Positions 8,365-29,839 of a DNA stretch of 41,560 nt are shown piece by piece; the first letter of the stretch is position 1; every line of letters starts with the position of its first letter. The notes below the pieces were generated by a model, which did not search any database, was not told the DNA's origin, and saw only the letters and a program-made list of their open reading frames with translations. The stretch spans positions 1-41,560 of the forward strand of contig QIJH01000145.1 of assembly GCA_003232725.1 (NCBI GenBank), given 5' to 3'. This DNA comes from Chromatiaceae bacterium (lineage in GTDB: Bacteria > Pseudomonadota > Gammaproteobacteria > SZUA-140). The position numbers and the translations under genes are program-made.

Positions 8365-9648
8365 TTAGCTTTGCTCACGTGCAACGGCGCGGTAACCGAT
8401 GTCGTTGCGATAAAATGCACCATTCCAGCTGACCTTTTTAACGTGGGCATAGGCATTTTGTTGTGCTTCGCTTACGGTTGCGCCGAGTGCAGACACGCAA
8501 ACCACGCGCCCACCTGCAGTGACCACGTTATCGCCTTCCATTTTGGTGCCCGCATGAAACACTTTGCTGCTGTCAGTGTCGTTATCAAGCCCGCTGATCT
8601 CGTCACCTGTTGGATAGTTGTCGGGGTAGCCCGCAGCGGCGATTACTACACCGAGCGCGACGCGTTCATCCCACTCTGCGCGAGTGCTACCTAGTTTTTT
8701 GTCAAGTGCTGCATCGCATAACTCGGTGATGTCTGACTTTAGTCGCATCATAATGGGTTGTGTTTCAGGGTCGCCAAAACGGCAGTTGTACTCGATCACC
8801 TGCGGCGCGCCATCGGCGTTGATCATCAATCCTGCATAGAGGAAGCCGGTGTAAGGATTGCCTTCGCTTGCCATGCCTGCGACGGTAGGTTCGATCACCT
8901 CTTTCATGATGCGGGCGTGGATCTCATCGGTAACGACGGGTGCGGGGGAGTATGCCCCCATGCCGCCGGTGTTAGGGCCTGTATCGCCTTCACCGACCCG
9001 TTTGTGATCCTGGCTGGTGGCCATCGGCAGGATATTTTTACCATCGACCATGCAGATAAAGCTCGCCTCCTCGCCTTCCAGGAACTCTTCGATCACGACG
9101 CGGTGGCCCGCTGCGCCAAAGGCGTTAGCGGCGAGCATGTCTTTGACTGCTGCCTCGGCGTCATTGACTGTCATCGCCACAATCACCCCTTTGCCTGCTG
9201 CAAGGCCGTCGGCCTTGATTACGATTGGCGCGCCTTGTTGGCGTACGTAGGCGATGGCGGGGTCGACTTCGGTGAAGTTTTGGTAGCGGCCGCTTGGGAT
9301 GTTGTGACGTGCCAAAAAGTCTTTGGTGAATGCCTTGGAGCCCTCCAGCTGAGCGGCACCTGCTGTCGGGCCAAAACAGCGCAGAGCGGCCTCTTCAAAG
9401 CGGTTAACCACACCGGCAACCAGCGGTGCTTCAGGACCAACGATGGTGAGGTCGATGCTATTTTCTTTGGCAAAGGCGAGCAGCGCTGGAATATCTTCAG
9501 CACTGATGGCGATATTTTCAAGCTTTATTTCACCTGCTGTGCCCGCATTACCAGGCGCAACATAGACGGTTTCGACGCGTGCTGATTGCGCTGCCTTCCA
9601 GGCCAGCGCGTGTTCGCGACCACCGCCGCCAATGATGAGTACCTTCAT
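8365..9648 (-). CDS. purD: Phosphoribosylamine-glycine ligase
   Basis: MKVLIIGGGGREHALAWK start, ATP-grasp motifs, EYNCRFGDPETQ. Confidence 0.98.
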   Translation of the reverse strand: MKVLIIGGGGREHALAWKAAQSARVETVYVAPGNAGTAGEIKLENIAISAEDIPALLAFAKENSIDLTIVGPEAPLVAGVVNRFEEAALRCFGPTAGAAQLEGSKAFTKDFLARHNIPSGRYQNFTEVDPAIAYVRQQGAPIVIKADGLAAGKGVIVAMTVNDAEAAVKDMLAANAFGAAGHRVVIEEFLEGEEASFICMVDGKNILPMATSQDHKRVGEGDTGPNTGGMGAYSPAPVVTDEIHARIMKEVIEPTVAGMASEGNPYTGFLYAGLMINADGAPQVIEYNCRFGDPETQPIMMRLKSDITELCDAALDKKLGSTRAEWDERVALGVVIAAAGYPDNYPTGDEISGLDNDTDSSKVFHAGTKMEGDNVVTAGGRVVCVSALGATVSEAQQNAYAHVKKVSWNGAFYRNDIGYRAVAREQS

Positions 9649-10002
9649 GATTTAATATATATCTTTATAATGTTGATCTAAATGACGCTATTAAACATTG
9701 TGCAGGATGGTTTTTTGCTTCGATCTGGTCGGTCTTTGGCCATCGCGCTCTATTTTTTCAAGAGTGTTAAGAGTAACGCATTCAAGGGTGTCGGGTCATC
9801 TTCGCACTGCATTGGCGATGTAATTCTCATCGGGCGGCTAAGTTATTGTTTTGCAATGTTATACATAATGTCTAATCGATTGAAATAAAAAGGAAAATAT
9901 GGTATCATGCAGGTGTATTTGGTAGGTCTGGGTCTTTATTTTTGGCATTCCGTCAAAAATTCATTCAGAAACTCTATTCCATCATACGAGCAGGATTTAA
10001 GT

Positions 10003-13000
10003 ATGTCGGCTACGCAGTGCCAGCAAAAGATTTTTCAGTCGCGAGGCATCACCACTCGGTGGTTTTATGCGGTTCTGTTGTTATTCTCTGTTCCAGTTCA
10101 GACTGTTGCTGCACCGGATATTGAAGCCGCATTTCCTGCTGCAAGTAACCTGGTTACCAATGGTTCCGTGTTGACGAGCGCATCATTTGGTTCAAGTGCT
10201 GGTGAGGATACGGGGCATGGTGTGGCCATTGATGTGAACACGGCGCTGATTGATCCGGCTTTCCCAAAAGTGACGAATTCAGGTGGGACGGGACAGATCA
10301 ATGCCATTGTTGAAGATGGCCTGGGTGGCTGGGTGATTGGCGGCGATTTTACTCATGTGGGTGGGATTGCGTTAACAAATCTTGCCTATATTCAAGCGGA
10401 TTTAACGGTTAGTAGTGACTGGCGTCCAAATCCTGATGGTGTTGTACATGCATTGAAATTTCATACACGCGAAGCAGGCTTGCGCCTGCTGGTCGGCGGT
10501 AAGTTTACGGAGATACACGGTGAGCCACGTTCGTATTTTGCCGAACTGCACACTGGATCGATCTCGAAGCCGGTAACCACGCTTGATATAACGCTAAATC
10601 CGGGTGGATTTGTGTATGCAATAGAGACGATTGATGCTAACGATGAATTAGAAGATCGCCTAGTCTATATCGGCGGTGAGTTTACCATGGTTCAAGGCAC
10701 TGGGCCGCGTGATAGTAACGGAGATGGTCAATTAGATGTCGATATCGCGGGGCTGGTTGGCATTGATATGGACGGTGATGGCATCTTTGAAACAACAAAG
10801 ACAATTTTTGCGGATCTGATATTCGATATTGATGTGGATGGCGATGGCGATATTGATATTGATGTGAATGACGATGGCAATGTAGATCAAACGATTGATG
10901 TTAAATATGATCTTTCCGGGATCGCATTAGATACTCCATTCGAGCAAACATATCCGCTGGCAGGTGATGTACGGCAGGGTATCGCCTCCCTTGATTTAAA
11001 TCAAACAAGCAATGGCATGGTGGTGCGTGAATGGAACCCTAATGTTGATGGCCCGGTAAAGGTAATGGTGCTTGCAGGGGATCGTGGACGATTGTTTATT
11101 GGCGGTGATTTTGAGAACATTGCGGTTAATGTTCAAACGGGTGCGGCTAATGATGTTGCTAGGCAGAGCATTGCTGAACTTGATGTGACAACTGATATTA
11201 ATGTGTTAACGCCATGGAACCCTGGGGACCCTGGGGACCCTGGGGACCCTGGAGCAAAGGAAACGACAGAAATCAAAGCGATGTTGCTGCAAGAATTTAG
11301 CACAGGTGAGGCGACGGCAAACGAGACTGGCCTATTATATGTTGGCGGCGATTTTGAGCGTATCGGTGGACAGGATCGTGGTAACTTTGCAGTGCTTGAC
11401 ATCAGCTTAGCGGGTAATAATGCGACCTCATGGGATGTGGATTTCAGTAGCGGTGTAGTGACTTCACTGGCACAAACAAATGAAACGGTATATGTCGGGG
11501 GTGAGTTTTCAGCGGTCGAGGGTGATGTCGGTTTTGCTAATTTGGCTGGAGTCTTGACCGTGGATGGTACACTGAGAACTGGCTGGAATCCTAAGCCAAC
11601 CAATGGCCCTGTTATGGCACTTGCGGTTGTGCGCGAAGGGGATGTTTTGATTGCCGGTGGCAAGTTCACCTCCGTGGCGGACGAATCGCGCCTTTATATT
11701 GGCGGTGATTTTACCTATATCGGGCCGAGTACGGGCAGTGGGGTGGTAATAAACGATATTGGTAATGTGCAGCCTAGTTGGCCGGAGATTGATGGTGAGA
11801 TATACACAGCAATAAGCGATGGTGCTGATGGTTGGTATATTGGCGGTAATTTTTCTTATGTCAATAATATTCCGCGTAATAATGTTGCCAGAATAAATGC
11901 TGATAGAAGTGTCAATGTCTGGAATCCAGACGCAAATGGTACTGTTTACACATTAGCCGTTAGCGGTACAAATGTTGTTGCGGGCGGTGATTTTACCTCC
12001 ATCGGTGGCGAGCCAATCAGAAATTATATTGCGCAGCTTATTGGTACTGGTGTTGGTGCTGCTACTGACTGGGATCCCAATGCCAATGATGTCGTGCGGG
12101 CGATAACGGTTAATGGCGACAATGTTTATGTGGGTGGTGACTTTACACTCATTGGTAGCCAAACATCACAGCCAATAAGAAACCATGTTGCACATTTTGA
12201 TTTTTCGAATGCGGCTAATGACGACGTTGCTACTGACTGGAATCCAAATGCTAATGATATTGTTCGGTCATTAGCCGTGAGTGGTACTAATATAATTGTG
12301 GGCGGTGATTTTAGTTCCATCGGTGGCGCGCCAACAAGAAATTATATTGCAGAACTTGGTGGCGCTGCTGCGGGCGCTGCTACTAACTGGAACCCTAATG
12401 CCAATGATGTCGTGCGGGCGTTAGCCGTTAACGGTGCCGATGTATATGTGGGCGGTGACTTTACACGCATAGGTGGCCTGGATAGAAATCATATTGCATT
12501 GGTCGATAATGCAGGGGTGGTGAATGCCGACTGGGACCCCGATGCGGATGGCCGTGTTACCGCGTTAATGTTTAATGGTACAACGCTTTATGTGGGTGGT
12601 GATTTCACCTTTATAGGCCGATTGCTTCGTAATCGAGTGGCCGCTTTCACGGCAGGTAGTGATGTTGCCGAGAGCTGGAACCCTTCGGTTGGAAATACGG
12701 TGTATGCACTATCACCTGATAGTGCAACAAATATTTTTATTGGCGGGGCTTTTTCCTCTGTTGGCGGCGTTACTCGAGAGTATCTGGCTGCCATTGATTC
12801 GAGTACTGGTATTTTGAGTTCCAATTTCAATGTTGGGTCAGATGCGACGGTAAGAGATATGGCGTTAAGCGCAGATGGGGACACGCTTTATGTGGGCGGT
12901 GACTTTACCTCTGTGGGTGGTCAATCACGTAACCATATTGCTGCATTAAAGACGGCAACCGGTAGTGCCTGGGGGTGGGATCCTAATATAGATGGCAGTT

Positions 13001-14817
13001 CTTCGACGACAACAGTGCATGATATTGAACTCTCGCCGGATGAGGGCGTACTGTACGTGGCGGGTGAGTTTGAGACGATAGGTGGCACTGCGCGTAATAA
13101 CGTGGGGGCCATTGATGTGACGAGTGGTGGAGGTACTGAGTGGGATCCATCAGTGGGCGGGGTTGTTTATACGATTGCCCTAAATGACAATGCTCTATTT
13201 ATTGGTGGTGACTTTGCTAATATTAATACGAATGGCCAGAATATATTTCGCTCTCACTTGGCGGCGTTAAATACGGCTCAGGAGATAAACAATGCATTAG
13301 CCTGGGCGCCTGCTGTCGATGGCCCTGTGTATGGCATGGCGAATGCTGGTTCCACCCTCTATATTGGTGGCGACTTCCGCTTTATTAATGACGGCGGCCT
13401 TACTCAGGCGCGAGACTATCTTGCAGCCATTGATACCTCTGCTAATGCCTTTAACCTGCTCAGTTGGAAGCCGCTAGCAAATGGCAAGGTTGAGGCGATT
13501 GCCTTAACGAAAGATGCTGTTTTTGTGGGTGGTGATTTTACTGAAATTAATACTGTTTCACGTGAACGCTTGGCTGCACTCGATTTTGTTGATGGTGCAC
13601 CACTTTCGTGGTGGGATTTACGGGCAGACACAACCGTACGACATCTGGGTATTAATGGTGCGGATGAGCGAATGGTTATTGGGGGTGATTTTAAGCAGGT
13701 AACGGCGACCATCACGCCGATCACGCGCTACTTACGTGAGGGTTTGACGGCGGTGGATGTGGGGTTCCCTCGAGTGGTGACTAATCCGCCTGCGGGTGCA
13801 TATAAAGAGCTGTTAGAATCCGCCACATCAAATGATGTTACCGTGAGTTGTATCGATGTGCCAAGAGGGTGCAGTGGGCAAGCGGTGTATTACACCATTA
13901 ACAGTAATACAGCACCTGATTTTAGTGGCCCAGTACCATCACAGACAATTGATATTTCGTTTAACACAACACTTCAACTGATTGCCAGAGACGATGCGGG
14001 CAATCAATCTGAAATACAGACGATGCTTTATGTGATCGATGAGCAGCCTCCAGCAACAACTGCCTTACCTGCAGGCCTGCTGCCAGATGGAAAAATACTG
14101 AATCGCAATGATGACCTGGATATTGTATTGGACTGTGTTGATGTCGGTGGTGCAGGTTGCGCGGAAATCTATTATACGATTGATGGCACTGAGCCGACGG
14201 ATGCATCAACGGTTTACACGGGGCCGATTACCCTTAGTCAAAATACAACATTGAAGTATTTTGCATTTGATCAGGCGCGTAATAATGAACCAGATATCAA
14301 TGAAGAGCAGTATTGGCTTGATTTAGCTGCACCTACCGTGGTGTCTGAGCCGCCAACACAAGTATTTTATACTGAAGAACTTGAGTTGACGCTGTTATGT
14401 AGTGATGACACGGAAGTCACGCAGGCGTCCATTGGTGATATTCCTGATGCGAATAATCCACCGCAGCCAGATGATCCGCCGGTGACGGGAGAGGAGAGTG
14501 TTGATGAAAATGATAATGTGATAACAGGGTGTAGTGGGGTATATTATACGCTGGATAACTCAACACCAACCACCGCATCGATGCTCTACACGGGGCCGTT
14601 TCGCTTGTCAGATAGTACGGTGGTGAAATTCATCGCGCTAGATCGTATTGGTAATCAGTCGATACTCAAGCGCTCCAGTTATGTAAAAAATTATAGTGAC
14701 AATGTTGGCGCTATTGGGCCATTAGGTGGTGGTTTGTTGTTGCTATCATGGCTATGTTGGCGTTTTCATCGACACCATTTGGTGGGCCAGGAGTGTCGTG
14801 ACAGGGGATTGATATGA
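10003..14817 (+). CDS. Very large secreted DUF5122/delta-60-like beta-propeller repeat protein with chitobiase/HEX C-terminal-like repeats and a C-terminal membrane/sorting tail
   Basis: About 21 copies of a [LV][YF][VI]GG[DE]F[TS]xIGG motif alternating with 'RN.[IL]A.LD...W[ND]P[ND]..G.V'. Three 'C...YYT[IL]D...P....YTGP..L...T.[LV]K[FY][FI]A.D..GN' repeats. ATG at 10003 (SD-like AGGA upstream) yields a signal peptide ending TVAA; the track start at 9907 lacks one. Confidence 0.85.
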   Translation: MSATQCQQKIFQSRGITTRWFYAVLLLFSVPVQTVAAPDIEAAFPAASNLVTNGSVLTSASFGSSAGEDTGHGVAIDVNTALIDPAFPKVTNSGGTGQINAIVEDGLGGWVIGGDFTHVGGIALTNLAYIQADLTVSSDWRPNPDGVVHALKFHTREAGLRLLVGGKFTEIHGEPRSYFAELHTGSISKPVTTLDITLNPGGFVYAIETIDANDELEDRLVYIGGEFTMVQGTGPRDSNGDGQLDVDIAGLVGIDMDGDGIFETTKTIFADLIFDIDVDGDGDIDIDVNDDGNVDQTIDVKYDLSGIALDTPFEQTYPLAGDVRQGIASLDLNQTSNGMVVREWNPNVDGPVKVMVLAGDRGRLFIGGDFENIAVNVQTGAANDVARQSIAELDVTTDINVLTPWNPGDPGDPGDPGAKETTEIKAMLLQEFSTGEATANETGLLYVGGDFERIGGQDRGNFAVLDISLAGNNATSWDVDFSSGVVTSLAQTNETVYVGGEFSAVEGDVGFANLAGVLTVDGTLRTGWNPKPTNGPVMALAVVREGDVLIAGGKFTSVADESRLYIGGDFTYIGPSTGSGVVINDIGNVQPSWPEIDGEIYTAISDGADGWYIGGNFSYVNNIPRNNVARINADRSVNVWNPDANGTVYTLAVSGTNVVAGGDFTSIGGEPIRNYIAQLIGTGVGAATDWDPNANDVVRAITVNGDNVYVGGDFTLIGSQTSQPIRNHVAHFDFSNAANDDVATDWNPNANDIVRSLAVSGTNIIVGGDFSSIGGAPTRNYIAELGGAAAGAATNWNPNANDVVRALAVNGADVYVGGDFTRIGGLDRNHIALVDNAGVVNADWDPDADGRVTALMFNGTTLYVGGDFTFIGRLLRNRVAAFTAGSDVAESWNPSVGNTVYALSPDSATNIFIGGAFSSVGGVTREYLAAIDSSTGILSSNFNVGSDATVRDMALSADGDTLYVGGDFTSVGGQSRNHIAALKTATGSAWGWDPNIDGSSSTTTVHDIELSPDEGVLYVAGEFETIGGTARNNVGAIDVTSGGGTEWDPSVGGVVYTIALNDNALFIGGDFANINTNGQNIFRSHLAALNTAQEINNALAWAPAVDGPVYGMANAGSTLYIGGDFRFINDGGLTQARDYLAAIDTSANAFNLLSWKPLANGKVEAIALTKDAVFVGGDFTEINTVSRERLAALDFVDGAPLSWWDLRADTTVRHLGINGADERMVIGGDFKQVTATITPITRYLREGLTAVDVGFPRVVTNPPAGAYKELLESATSNDVTVSCIDVPRGCSGQAVYYTINSNTAPDFSGPVPSQTIDISFNTTLQLIARDDAGNQSEIQTMLYVIDEQPPATTALPAGLLPDGKILNRNDDLDIVLDCVDVGGAGCAEIYYTIDGTEPTDASTVYTGPITLSQNTTLKYFAFDQARNNEPDINEEQYWLDLAAPTVVSEPPTQVFYTEELELTLLCSDDTEVTQASIGDIPDANNPPQPDDPPVTGEESVDENDNVITGCSGVYYTLDNSTPTTASMLYTGPFRLSDSTVVKFIALDRIGNQSILKRSSYVKNYSDNVGAIGPLGGGLLLLSWLCWRFHRHHLVGQECRDRGLI
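10711..10905 (+). other. Ca-binding-like DxNxDGxxD repeat insertion inside a propeller repeat
   Basis: DSNGDGQLD...DMDGDGIFE...DVDGDGDIDID...DVNDDGNVD in the translated sequence. Confidence 0.65.
11217..11252 (+). repeat. 9-bp in-frame tandem repeat (ccctgggga)n encoding (G-D-P)n
   Basis: aaccctggggaccctggggaccctggggaccctgga encodes NPGDPGDPGDPG. Confidence 0.9.
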
Positions 14818-17800
14818 TGTTGTCATCGAATGTTCGCATGAAGAATTTATTGCTGCTGATGTTCATCTGTTTGTCATTAGTGTTCAGCGTGGTGCTGCAG
14901 GCTGCCACAGTTCCGCTGGATGGCACATGGCAGCCTAACGGCCCGGTTTATGCGGTTGAGATGGTGAAGGGTGACGGAGCCAATAGTGCTTTTATTGGCG
15001 GCGATTTTACCTATGTTGGCCCTGAGTCTGGCAGTGCCGTGGCGATTAGTTCAGAAGCGCCAAATCACACACTCTTTGATCTGACGTTTACTGGTTCTGG
15101 CGTTCACATTGCGATAGCATCCGCTAATGGTGGCTGGTATATCGGAGGTGATTTTACCCAGGTGATAGATAGTAGTGGTATTCATGAGCGTAATTATCTT
15201 GCTGAAATAGACGTCGATGGTAATGTGCTTGACTGGGATCCTGATGTTAATGGAATTGTTCGAACACTGTTGCTCGATATGGCAAATAGCACGCTGTATG
15301 TTGGCGGTGATTTTACGACAGTGAATGGTACAACAACGCGTAATCGGTTGGTGGCATTTGATACGTCTGATAATACTGTGATGAGCTGGAATCCAAATGC
15401 CAATGGTCCAGTGCATGCGATGGCATTGGATAGTACCAATGAGAGCCTTTATGTGGGCGGTGATTTTACAAACATTGGCAGCCAGGCGACACAGCCAACA
15501 AGAAATCGCATTGCACACTTTAATCTATTGATTGCGGGTAGTGAAGATGTCGCTTCTGGGTGGGATCCGAATGTTAATGAGATTGTTCGCACACTGCTAC
15601 TGGATGCGGTCAATGGCAGGCTTTATGCTGGCGGTGATTTTACGCAAGTGAATGGTGTGCTAGTGACACCACGTAATTATTTAGCGGCATTTGATACCAC
15701 AGAAAATATAAATAATGACCTGGATTGGCACCCGAATGCTAACGGTATTGTTCGTACGCTGGAATTATTAGGTAACTTTCTCTATATCGGCGGTGATTTT
15801 TCTACAATCAATGGCGCCAGCAGACCTGGTTTTGCTGTCAGCGATGTTTCTGATCTCTCTTCGGTTATGATTGTTGCCTGGAGTGGCAATAGGCTTCCTT
15901 TTACCGGTGCTGAGGAAGCAAGTATCCATGTGAGACAGATAATAGCTGTAGGTAGTTTGATCTATGTTGCTTCGAACGGAGAGCTTGATGCCGATGCATC
16001 TGATCGTGCGGTCTCTAGAGTGGCGGCGCTGAACCCAGCTACCGGCGCAGTCTCCTGGTCGACGGATACCAGTGGTGGGTTAATTAATACAATTGCCTTT
16101 GTCGATGATCAAATATTTGTCGCCGGAACGTTTGAATCTGGTGGTGGTCGTATTCGCAGTAATATTGCAGAACTGGATTTAAGTACGAGTACCTTGCGAG
16201 GTATGGCGACCGAGTGGGATGTGTTTGTTAATGGGCCTGTGTATAGCATTGCATCAACGAGTAACGGCCAGGGGATCTATATTGGCGGTCAATTCTCAAC
16301 ACCAAGAAATAATATTGCTTTACTAAGTGCCACTTCTAACAATGTTGCGCTCTGGAACCCATCGGTGACGGGTACAGATGCTAAAGTGAGGGCGATGGCA
16401 TTATCACCTGATGAGGAAACACTCTATGTGGGCGGATTGTTTTCGCACGTTACCACAATAAGTCGTAATAATATCGCGGAGTTGAATGCGCTTGTGACAG
16501 GTGTTGATGGGGAGGGTATTTTAAATACTGGCGGTAGTGCAATAGGGCAGTTTGATGGTGCGAATGGAGAGGTGTATGCATTGGCGGCCAGCAGTGATAA
16601 CGAGTTAGTTTTTGCTGGCGGTGCCTTTACGATTATTGGTGGGGATTTTAAGTCGAAAGTCGCTGCGTTAAGCGTTGCAAGCGGCAAGCCATTGTCTAAC
16701 GATGATTTTTGGGCAGTAACTGATGTCAATCAAGCAGTACGTACTCTGGCGCTGAGTAGTGATGACCGTGTGTTATATATGGGGGGGGAGTTTACATCAA
16801 TTCAAACTATTGATAAGGATGGTGTTTTTACCGAGAACACCAGCAATCGTATTGCCGTGCTAAAGATGCTGCCTTTTGATGTGCCTAACAATATTGATAA
16901 GTGGAGTCTGGATGTCGCTGTTGATCCAAATGTCACAGGCACAAGCGTCCATTCGCTGGCACTCTCTAGTGATGATCAAATGTTATGGCTGGGTGGGAAT
17001 TTTTCGAATATTATGGCTGCTGGAATTACAAGAAATCATGTGGCACGTTATAATTTGTCTGAGTCTTTATTGACTGAATGGAACCCTGATATCGCTGATA
17101 TCCCCGACAATAACCCAGTTGTTTATGCGGTGGAACGAAATACCGATGACTCTTTGATGATTGTTGGTGGTGGCTTTAATACTGTTGGCAGTAGCCCGGC
17201 TATTCCCCGCAATAATCTTACTATTTTTGATACGGCACGCCCTACCGTGACAAACCATGTTGTGGGTGGTTTTTACAATACTCCCTCATTGGATGTGATT
17301 CTTTCATGTACGCATAACAGCACCGCAGGGCCGTGCGAGATTTTTTACACGTTAGATGGTTTCGATCCAGAACAACTGACTGCTTTGTCAGTGCTCTATG
17401 TTCAGCCTCCCCCCGCGCCACCTGAGCCACCACCACCACCTAGAATTGATGTGATTGCAGCGGATGCTGAGGTGAAGTTTTTTGCAAAAGATGCACATGG
17501 CACGGTCAGTGAGATTAATTCAGCGAACTATGGCATTGATAATGAATACCCAACGACAACAGCGCAGCCAAACATTCTCTTGAAGGATATTTTACATGGA
17601 GATGGTTATATGGAAATTTCAAATACGGGGATCGAAATTGCGTTGGTATGTGAGGATAGTGGCGGTGCTAACTGTGGTAATACCTACTACACCACGGATG
17701 GTTCAGCACCAAACAAGGATGATGGTACGCTAAGTGACGGCGCGCAGCTATATGAATCACCGCTAACACCACAACAACTGTTGCCGCTTGGTTCTTACAC

Positions 17801-18881
17801 CTTGGATGATTTGGTGGGTAATGAGCAGGATGTTTTTGAGGAGATGACATTGGCTGATATTGTCTCCTCGGTCGAGGAAGCCAGAATTCGAATTGATTTA
17901 ACTAAATTTACATTAGCTGATATTCCCCCGGTGGCGGTTGCGCGTAATAGTATTGAGGTGGCACGTGTTCTTGAACATGTAGATTTAGCGGCGATCCGGA
18001 TTGATTCGATTCCAGGGAATATATTGGCGAATGTGGTGGCATCAGCTAATATCCCTGAAGGGGCCGAGACATTTGCAGATATTGATCCAGATAATCTGGA
18101 TCTGAATCAAATTACCCTCGGTTCAATTTCAAGGGAGGCCTACTCTTTGGCCGATATTCCAGCATCGGATACACCGCCGCCGACCTATATTACCGCTTCT
18201 CAGGTGCCGCTGATTCAGAGGGTGCCGGGTGGGGCGGATAATCGTATAGTGCTTGATGCGGTGCGTAAAAAGGAAATTACTTTAGAGCAGATCCCGGCTG
18301 AATTTATTCCGGGAACGCGTTTGTATGGCTTTATTGAGTTGCAGTTTTTCTCAATCGACAGGGCGGGTAATAGCGAGGCGCTCGCGCCTTCGCCTGATAC
18401 GGGTGTGAAACGTGAGATTTACTATGTGGATATCGGCGCGCCAGAAACACAGGCGACACCGAATACAGAGGGTAATGTATTTACCTCTGAAATCCATGTG
18501 GTACTGGAATGTTATGATTATGGAGATGTGCCATCTGGTTTTAGTGTTCTACCGACAGGCGTGACGACAGAGGCGACGGGTTCTGGCTGTAGAGAGGGCA
18601 GCACGTATTATACGATTGGTGGTGGGATACCAACACCATCTGAGGTGGGAACGGGTGGCGCAACACAGGTCTACAGCGGGCCGATTGCGATTTCATCAGC
18701 ATCGATATTGCGCTTTCTCTCTATTGATGAGCTGGGGAACGAAGAGATTTCTGGTTTTGAGGTTTACGCCTTTACCTTTAGTAGCGTGGCCCAGAGTGGG
18801 GTAGGGGCGAGCGGTTTTGCGGTGTGGTTGTTTGCACTATTCGGATTGCTAGTGCGTTGGCGTAGCATGCGGGCGACGTGA
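14814..18881 (+). CDS. Second large secreted DUF5122/delta-60-like beta-propeller repeat protein, paralog of the upstream gene
   Basis: ATGA overlap with the upstream stop; signal peptide (MKNLLLLMFICLSLVFSVVLQAA). About 13 xYxGGxF motifs, C-terminal YYT.DG...P repeats, and a terminal Gly/hydrophobic/basic tail (GVGASGFAVWLFALFGLLVRWRSMR). Confidence 0.85.
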   Translation: MMLSSNVRMKNLLLLMFICLSLVFSVVLQAATVPLDGTWQPNGPVYAVEMVKGDGANSAFIGGDFTYVGPESGSAVAISSEAPNHTLFDLTFTGSGVHIAIASANGGWYIGGDFTQVIDSSGIHERNYLAEIDVDGNVLDWDPDVNGIVRTLLLDMANSTLYVGGDFTTVNGTTTRNRLVAFDTSDNTVMSWNPNANGPVHAMALDSTNESLYVGGDFTNIGSQATQPTRNRIAHFNLLIAGSEDVASGWDPNVNEIVRTLLLDAVNGRLYAGGDFTQVNGVLVTPRNYLAAFDTTENINNDLDWHPNANGIVRTLELLGNFLYIGGDFSTINGASRPGFAVSDVSDLSSVMIVAWSGNRLPFTGAEEASIHVRQIIAVGSLIYVASNGELDADASDRAVSRVAALNPATGAVSWSTDTSGGLINTIAFVDDQIFVAGTFESGGGRIRSNIAELDLSTSTLRGMATEWDVFVNGPVYSIASTSNGQGIYIGGQFSTPRNNIALLSATSNNVALWNPSVTGTDAKVRAMALSPDEETLYVGGLFSHVTTISRNNIAELNALVTGVDGEGILNTGGSAIGQFDGANGEVYALAASSDNELVFAGGAFTIIGGDFKSKVAALSVASGKPLSNDDFWAVTDVNQAVRTLALSSDDRVLYMGGEFTSIQTIDKDGVFTENTSNRIAVLKMLPFDVPNNIDKWSLDVAVDPNVTGTSVHSLALSSDDQMLWLGGNFSNIMAAGITRNHVARYNLSESLLTEWNPDIADIPDNNPVVYAVERNTDDSLMIVGGGFNTVGSSPAIPRNNLTIFDTARPTVTNHVVGGFYNTPSLDVILSCTHNSTAGPCEIFYTLDGFDPEQLTALSVLYVQPPPAPPEPPPPPRIDVIAADAEVKFFAKDAHGTVSEINSANYGIDNEYPTTTAQPNILLKDILHGDGYMEISNTGIEIALVCEDSGGANCGNTYYTTDGSAPNKDDGTLSDGAQLYESPLTPQQLLPLGSYTLDDLVGNEQDVFEEMTLADIVSSVEEARIRIDLTKFTLADIPPVAVARNSIEVARVLEHVDLAAIRIDSIPGNILANVVASANIPEGAETFADIDPDNLDLNQITLGSISREAYSLADIPASDTPPPTYITASQVPLIQRVPGGADNRIVLDAVRKKEITLEQIPAEFIPGTRLYGFIELQFFSIDRAGNSEALAPSPDTGVKREIYYVDIGAPETQATPNTEGNVFTSEIHVVLECYDYGDVPSGFSVLPTGVTTEATGSGCREGSTYYTIGGGIPTPSEVGTGGATQVYSGPIAISSASILRFLSIDELGNEEISGFEVYAFTFSSVAQSGVGASGFAVWLFALFGLLVRWRSMRAT

Positions 18882-18914
18882 CATTAACGCTGCCCACACG
18901 CGAATCATCTCTTT

Positions 18915-20495
18915 TTAGTGGCGGAAGTGGCGCATGCCAGTAAAGACCATCGCCATGCCATGTTCGTTAGCAGCATCAATCACTTCCTGGTCTCGCATTG
19001 AACCGCCTGGCTGAATTACCGCAGTGATACCTGCTTCGGCTGCGGCATCAATACCATCACGGAACGGAAAGAAGGCATCGCTTGCCATGACGGACCCTTT
19101 CACTTGCAGGTTAGCATCGGCTGCCTTGATCGCGGCGATACGCGCACTATAGATACGGCTCATTTGGCCCGCACCAACGCCGATCGTGGTAAGCGCTTTG
19201 CTGTAGACAATGGCGTTAGACTTGACAAACTTCGCTACCTTCCAGCTGAATAGCAGGTCTCTCATCACTTCGTCAGAGGGCGCAATCCTGGTGACAATCT
19301 TAAGGTCATCTTTGGTGACCATTGCGATATCTGAGGTTTGCAGCAAGATGCCGCCATTTACTCGGCGGTAGTCGAGTGATACAGTGCGTTCTAACGGCCA
19401 TTCACCGCAGGCGAGCAGACGGACGTTTGCTTTCTCGGCGATAATCGCCAAGGCGCTCTTCGTTACAGAGGGGGCGATAATAACCTCAACAAACTGACGG
19501 TCGATAATCGCGCGTGCTGTTTCGGTGTCGAGTGGGCGATTAAAGGCGATGATGCCACCAAAGGCTGAGGTTGGGTCTGTTTTATAAGCACGATCGTAGG
19601 CATTGATCAGCGAACCGGCGATCGCAACACCACAGGGGTTGGCATGTTTTACGATCACACAGGCTGGTTTTTCAAATTGCTTAACGCACTCTAGGGCGGC
19701 ATCAGTATCGGCGATATTATTAAATGACAGCGCTTTGCCTTGTAGTTGTGCTGCTGTTGCAACGCAGGCCTCTTGCGCACGTGCTTCAATATAGAATGCT
19801 GCTTTTTGATGAGGGTTTTCACCGTAACGCATATCTTGTAATTTGATGAATTGCGCATTGAAGCTGTGCGGGAATGTCGCACGATTTTTATTTGAAACCC
19901 CGTTGTCGGTGATGCTACCCAGGTAATTGGCAATGGTGCTGTCGTAGGCGGCGGTATGCTCAAAGGCTTTAACTGCGAGTGAAAAACGACTGGCATGACT
20001 GAGACTGTTATCATTTTCAGCCATCTCTTCCAGTACCTCTGCGTAGTCGTTAACATCCACAACGATCGCGACATCTTTGTGGTTTTTAGCTGCTGCACGC
20101 ACCATGGTAGGCCCGCCAATATCGATGTTTTCAATCGCGAGCGGGAGGTCGCAGTCTGGTTTGGCGACGGTCTGTTCAAAGGGGTAGAGGTTTACCACGA
20201 CCAGATCAATCGGGGCGATGTTGTGTTCCGTCATCGCATCGCCATCAATCTCGCGACGGCCAAGAATACCGCCGTGAATCTTTGGATGCAGGGTCTTAAG
20301 GCGGCCATCCATCATCTCTGGAAAACCGGTGTGGTCGGAGACTTCAATCACCTTGACACCATTATCGGCAAGTAATTTGGCAGTGCCACCGGTAGAGAGT
20401 ATCTCTACCTTCATCGATTGCAAGCCCTGGGCAAATTCTAGAATGTTCGTTTTATCCGATACACTGATGAGTGCGCGTTTAATAGTCATGGGCAA
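18915..20495 (-). CDS. purH: Bifunctional AICAR formyltransferase/IMP cyclohydrolase
   Basis: [21 protein letters not shown] start, [22 protein letters not shown]-terminal MRHFRH. Confidence 0.98.
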
Positions 20496-20574: not shown

Positions 20575-20832
20575 TTAATTATTGAGGTTGTAAACTTCTA
20601 ATTTTTTGCGCAGTGTGCTGCGGTTGATGCCGAGGATCTCTGATGCTTTACTCTGATTGCCACGGGTGTAATCCAGTACGGCTTTGAGGAGTGGTTGTTC
20701 CACTTCATTCAGCACCATGCGGTAGAGATCGGCAGGCTGATGCCCATCGAGGTCGTGAAAATAGCGTTCCAGTGCACTATCGATACAAGCACTGATAGGT
20801 TGTTTGCGACGTTCCTGTTTGTCTGTGTTCAT
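20575..20832 (-). CDS. fis: DNA-binding protein Fis
   Basis: C-terminal HTH 'LYRMVLNEVEQPLLKAVLDYTRGNQSKASEILGINRSTLRKKLEVYNLN'; adjacent to dusB. Confidence 0.96.
   Translation of the reverse strand: MNTDKQERRKQPISACIDSALERYFHDLDGHQPADLYRMVLNEVEQPLLKAVLDYTRGNQSKASEILGINRSTLRKKLEVYNLNN

Positions 20833-28605: not shown

Positions 28606-29839
<1,234 letters not shown>

Follow-up and report, generated by a model that had tools for sequence, protein, structure and literature searches.

A purH-linked pair of probable multi-propeller surface proteins conserved across a gammaproteobacterial order

Organization of the locus

The analysed window, a 41,560-nt stretch of a Chromatiaceae bacterium, is one of the 257 contigs that make up the 2.66-Mb source genome. 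It carries two long plus-strand open reading frames, 9907-14817 (1636 aa) and 14814-18881 (1355 aa), which are flanked by purD and purH on the minus strand. The first-pass annotation had reported a coupled gene pair at this place, and both genes were present at the positions it gave, with an ATGA overlap joining gene 1 (encoding P1) to gene 2 (encoding P2). The tsaC and hemF genes lie downstream of purD. The order fis-dusB-purH given for the other flank needed correction: the minus strand actually reads dusB, a fis-like 85-aa ORF (20575-20832, named by eye) and purH.

The sequence comparison indicated that gene 1 probably starts at 10003 rather than at 9907, because the ATG at 9907 was missing from three of seven congeners and GAGCAGGA...ATG (AGGA...ATG) at 10003 was preserved almost unchanged in each of the seven. 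Transcription from the predicted promoter-like element TTGAAA-17-TATCAT would begin downstream of 9907. The proposal that purD needs a promoter of its own agreed with the layout, in which purD is divergent from gene 1 and a partly conserved intergenic region separates the two. A search for RNA elements in the interval separating purD from gene 1 returned no Rfam match there or anywhere else in the window. Judged by eye, the N-termini of both proteins are plausible signal peptides, as had been proposed. Elsewhere in the window, the Cys/Met metabolism PLP enzyme domain at 28634-29525 stops at 201 aa, about half of its profile, and is overlapped by a 130-aa ORF in another frame, so that this gene is possibly frameshifted or broken; the 231-aa ORF at 25777-26472 matches only the C-terminal end of DUF1631 and is possibly a truncated gene.

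Table 1. Features of the purD-purH interval in window coordinates.
Feature	Position	Strand	Description
purD (flank)	8365..9648	-	
purD/gene 1 intergenic region	9649..10002		between divergent genes; partly conserved within the genus
Promoter-like TTGAAA-17-TATCAT, extended -10	9880..9908	+	predicted from consensus match and conservation; TTGAAA in 7/7 congeners
Gene 1 (P1)	10003..14817	+	1604 aa with the probable start (1636 aa with ATG 9907); 21 propeller repeats, then CHB_HEX_C_1/Fn3 repeats, between a signal-like N-terminus and a Gly-hydrophobic-Arg tail
P1 propeller A (repeats 1-7)	10150..11646	+	with DxDGDG-type acidic insert
P1 propeller B (repeats 8-14)	11662..12696	+	modelled as beta-propeller, pTM 0.80
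P1 propeller C (repeats 15-21)	12697..13791	+	
P1 CHB_HEX_C_1/Fn3_assoc repeats	13792..14676	+	profile match
P1 C-terminal Gly-hydrophobic-basic tail	14677..14814	+	
Gene 2 (P2)	14814..18881	+	1355 aa, coupled through ATGA with gene 1; 14 propeller repeats, then CHB_HEX_C_1/Fn3 repeats, between a signal-like N-terminus and a Gly-hydrophobic-Arg tail
P2 propeller 1 (repeats 1-7)	14940..16073	+	colinear with P1 propeller B
P2 propeller 2 (repeats 8-14)	16074..17249	+	colinear with P1 propeller C
P2 CHB_HEX_C_1/Fn3_assoc repeats	17250..18758	+	profile match; interrupted by the insert
P2 175-aa insert	17790..18314	+	LxxIP-like repeats, inside the middle chitobiase-C-like repeat; genus-specific
P2 C-terminal Gly-hydrophobic-basic tail	18759..18878	+	
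purH (flank)	18915..20495	-	convergent with gene 2

Propeller repeats and the C-terminal repeat region

Both proteins had been described as combining DUF5122/delta-60-like propeller repeats with chitobiase-C-terminal-like repeats, and a profile check bore this out. DUF5122 (PF17164) scored 59.4 bits in P1 and 43.7 bits in P2 against a gathering cut-off of 27, and the chitobiase/hexosaminidase C-terminal domain (PF13290) scored 133.8 and 53.9 bits, respectively, against a cut-off of 22. The CHB_HEX_C_1/Fn3_assoc repeats, above the Pfam cut-offs in both proteins, lie C-terminal to the propellers. Leptospira plasmids (NZ_CP092205.1 and others) were also found to encode delta-60 repeat proteins, which share about 28-31% identity with P1.

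A repeat profile built for this analysis counted 21 propeller repeats in P1 and 14 in P2, and the relatives mostly contained 7, 14 or 21. The count was an exact multiple of seven in 18 of 30 proteins and one off in nine more, compared to about four exact multiples expected if the numbers were random modulo seven. Multiples of seven dominated the counts, and closure of each ring at seven blades is a prediction from counting and modelling. The AlphaFold model of P1 repeats 8-14, with the other units of the window as the alignment, reached a pTM of 0.80 and a pLDDT of 75, the first blade being of low confidence, and a Foldseek search with this seven-repeat model found 461 matches in the PDB with E <= 0.001, propellers being the best of them. 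This result supported a beta-propeller fold of the seven-repeat unit and with it the earlier propeller reading, for which an AlphaFold check had been proposed. The 14-repeat model (pLDDT 51) was too poor for use, and a search by sequence for a solved close homolog gave weak matches only (E >= 0.007).

The segments P1 580-1300 and P2 45-835 could be aligned colinearly at 35% identity, indicating that P1 and P2 are tandem paralogs of which P1 has one extra unit; gene 2 in other genera encodes one seven-repeat unit. Propeller B of P1 showed 62% identity between close congeners compared to ~80-85% in its neighbours, which suggests repeat shuffling or conversion in this propeller. An acidic DxDGDG-type stretch at 10700-10900 in propeller A of P1, overlapping a short tandem repeat, possibly binds calcium. 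The insert in the P2 repeat region was conserved about as well as its surroundings and was found only in the source genus, other genera having a short loop at about its place; a Pfam search with its 175 residues gave no match.

The fold and the repeat families also bear on what the propellers do. They might act as enzymes (e.g., a lyase, esterase or hydrolase) rather than as binding heads, a reading favoured by the enzyme CylK among the top Foldseek matches and by the chitobiase-C-like repeats of PF13290, which occur in glycosidases. However, the CylK match was at the level of the fold only, with 14% identity, and profile searches found no catalytic-domain family in P1 or P2, leaving an enzymatic role quite improbable. 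Binding rather than catalysis appears to be the likeliest activity of the pair.

Conservation, composition and descent of the pair

The first-pass annotation had interpreted the pair as a cassette inserted between purH and purD and had proposed comparing this synteny across close relatives. That comparison overturned the interpretation, because relatives across the order carried the same genes at the same place. The order was represented by 20 genomes, fragmented drafts from 7 genera of a single family, and P1/P2 homologs were present in all of them. In each of the 18 genomes with the purH side assembled, the homologous cassette lay tail to tail with purH, and it adjoined purD in 13 of the 15 genomes that were testable on that side; in genomes G005 and G008 purD was relocated, with the cassette still beside purH. 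An assembly error was ruled out, since eight genomes, the source genome included, showed the whole purD-cassette-purH arrangement on one contig. In the genome G007 (L141 4960-11046), a single frame of 2028 aa spans both cassette genes, and its join runs across a tail that is now internal and across a new segment that is signal-like. A lost stop or a sequencing error could account for this frame, and we therefore set the fusion aside as evidence of joint action.

Beyond this family, two genomes of a second family (G041, G188) each carried one homolog of ~1256 aa, placed between purH and purD and oriented as in the order, and a genome of a third family (G322) carried a homolog close to purH but separated from it by a single unrelated gene of 880 aa. 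A class-wide search of 369 genomes gave a strong homolog in nine genomes outside the family; in six of these, the homolog lay elsewhere than at purH-purD within the stretch examined. No viral relatives were found. A few other gammaproteobacteria had different, unrelated genes in the purH-purD gap (L037 6416-9951; L071 4342-7938; L070 9004-9966; L075 9109-9927), pointing to the gap as a tolerated site.

A comparison of GC and codon usage with the flanks had also been proposed. The compositional offset proved real, with a GC3 of 0.41 in the pair compared to 0.51-0.60 in the genes around it, and the correlation of codon usage was also lower. Together with the adjacency of purH and purD in most other gammaproteobacteria examined, this offset would be expected of a cassette that had arrived by horizontal transfer and had been inserted between the two genes recently. 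In contrast, the same site was occupied across the whole order and in the second family, and the cassette GC3, which fell below that of purH in all genomes of the order, tracked the GC3 of the host (r = 0.97). The offset is thus a property of the genes and not of a donor, so that the foreign origin drawn from it did not hold; a genomic island was rejected on the same grounds, and we consider a recent insertion extremely improbable.

The tree of gene 2 agreed in the main with that of purH, the two not being identical: they had five of 11 splits in common (the genus and four others, including the pairs G005-G006 and G007-G008), and some deeper placements, e.g., that of G009, differed. The dN/dS values of 0.20-0.27 for the pair, compared to 0.05-0.08 for purH and purD, indicated that the pair is under purifying selection and evolves faster than its flanking genes; faster evolution is usual for surface proteins. 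Taken together, we consider it reasonably likely that the locus is a two-gene operon for paired surface proteins, of old standing and passed on mainly by vertical descent. An ancient insertion may have taken place before the order arose. Only position connects the pair to purine synthesis; no functional link to purH or purD is evident, and its place beside them is most simply explained as a chance arrangement that was inherited.

C-terminal tails and a proposed route to the cell surface

As the earlier reading of a sorting-like tail implied, both proteins end in a Gly-hydrophobic-Arg tail, and nearly all relatives in the order likewise finish with a short motif containing Gly, followed by a hydrophobic stretch and then by basic residues. 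Neither tail in the window matched the GlyGly-CTERM model (TIGR03501, cut-off 15.5 bits), and we therefore do not claim membership of that class; the nearest family member, in genome G004, reached 13.8-14.5 bits. Assignment to MYXO-CTERM (TIGR03382/TIGR03901) was taken as a profile score above the cut-off together with a motif containing an invariant Cys, and P2 scored 11.5 bits against 15.85 with a motif lacking Cys. The source genome encodes a rhombosortase (G000:C21; 171 bits, cut-off 84) and, in a search that covered GspD, a type II secretin (G000:C144; 591 bits, cut-off 351). The two proteins exceeded their cut-offs in 19 and 18 of the 20 family genomes, respectively. Outside the family, a rhombosortase was present in all five genomes with a tailed propeller protein and in none of the four with a tailless one, a split with a chance of about 0.01 if the genomes were independent, although two of these nine are congeners and the correlation was noticed after the fact.

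The tail also resembles a plain transmembrane helix followed by a basic stop-transfer segment, and nothing scored above the GlyGly-CTERM cut-off. On this evidence, the C-terminal helix might stay uncut and hold the proteins in the inner membrane, with the propellers acting in the periplasm. However, the joint presence and absence of tail and rhombosortase in the nine outside-family genomes, the rhombosortase in nearly all genomes inside the family, and the P2 tail being the best conserved part of P2 between distant congeners (68-70%) make retention of the helix unlikely. The tails, the rhombosortase and the secretin in the same genome favour a probable surface system, the kind of function suggested earlier as a possibility, and P1 and P2 are most likely surface-anchored adhesins or ligand-binding propellers, the anchoring being predicted from these components.

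In the proposed route, Sec would export P1 and P2, and each would fold in the periplasm into a row of seven-bladed propellers borne by an Ig-like stalk. The rhombosortase would then cut both proteins just before the C-terminal helix, the cut proteins would receive a lipid-type anchor, and the type II system would carry them to the cell surface, as has been shown for the Vibrio cholerae protein VesB. At the surface, the propellers would form a multivalent binding head for adhesion to polysaccharide, matrix or another cell. Tentatively, the pair may represent a new class of rhombosortase cargo, in which two multi-propeller paralogs, their tails a variant missed by the current GlyGly-CTERM model, are displayed together as a modular binding head that gains or loses whole seven-bladed rings between genera.

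These results replace a mistaken insertion story with a feature of the lineage, a purH-linked pair of probable surface proteins conserved in the gammaproteobacterial order examined. Should the rhombosortase link prove correct, the present tail model misses part of the proteins that use this sorting pathway. The gain or loss of whole rings between genera would provide a natural series in which the growth of tandem propellers could be followed.

Among known systems, the C-terminal propeller of Rax2 (PF12768), a fungal cell-polarity protein, scored above the Pfam cut-off in both P1 and P2, with the similarity confined to the level of the repeats. The C-terminal repeats of P1 just passed the model for OmpL47-type repeat proteins (NF047446; 40.6 bits, cut-off 40); in this case, however, the repeats in question are the CHB_HEX_C_1/Fn3_assoc ones, and the full-length model of the Leptospira OmpL47-type protein was not matched (23 versus 250 bits). 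The DUF5122/delta-60 proteins (PF17164) share the repeat family, which is above cut-off in P1 and P2, whereas the present proteins differ in their sevens (21 and 14), their coupled gene pair, and their stalk and sorting-like tail. The DUF5122/delta-60 propeller has been modelled from contacts (PMC8078820), and a literature search for DUF5122 or delta-60 function gave only a modelling paper. A parallel to the tail is offered by GlyGly-CTERM/rhombosortase proteins such as VesB (TIGR03501/TIGR03902; PMC3237569, PMC6219818), which also end in a Gly motif, a hydrophobic helix and a basic end; in V. cholerae, VesB is cut by rhombosortase, receives a glycerophosphoethanolamine-containing group and reaches the surface through the type II system (PMC6219818). 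The source genome likewise encodes a rhombosortase and a type II secretin. In contrast to these systems, the tails of P1 and P2 fall below the TIGR03501 cut-off, and VesB is a protease, whereas the cargo here is a string of propellers. The parts of the system are known and its placement is ordinary, and the possible link to sorting is what is new for this group.
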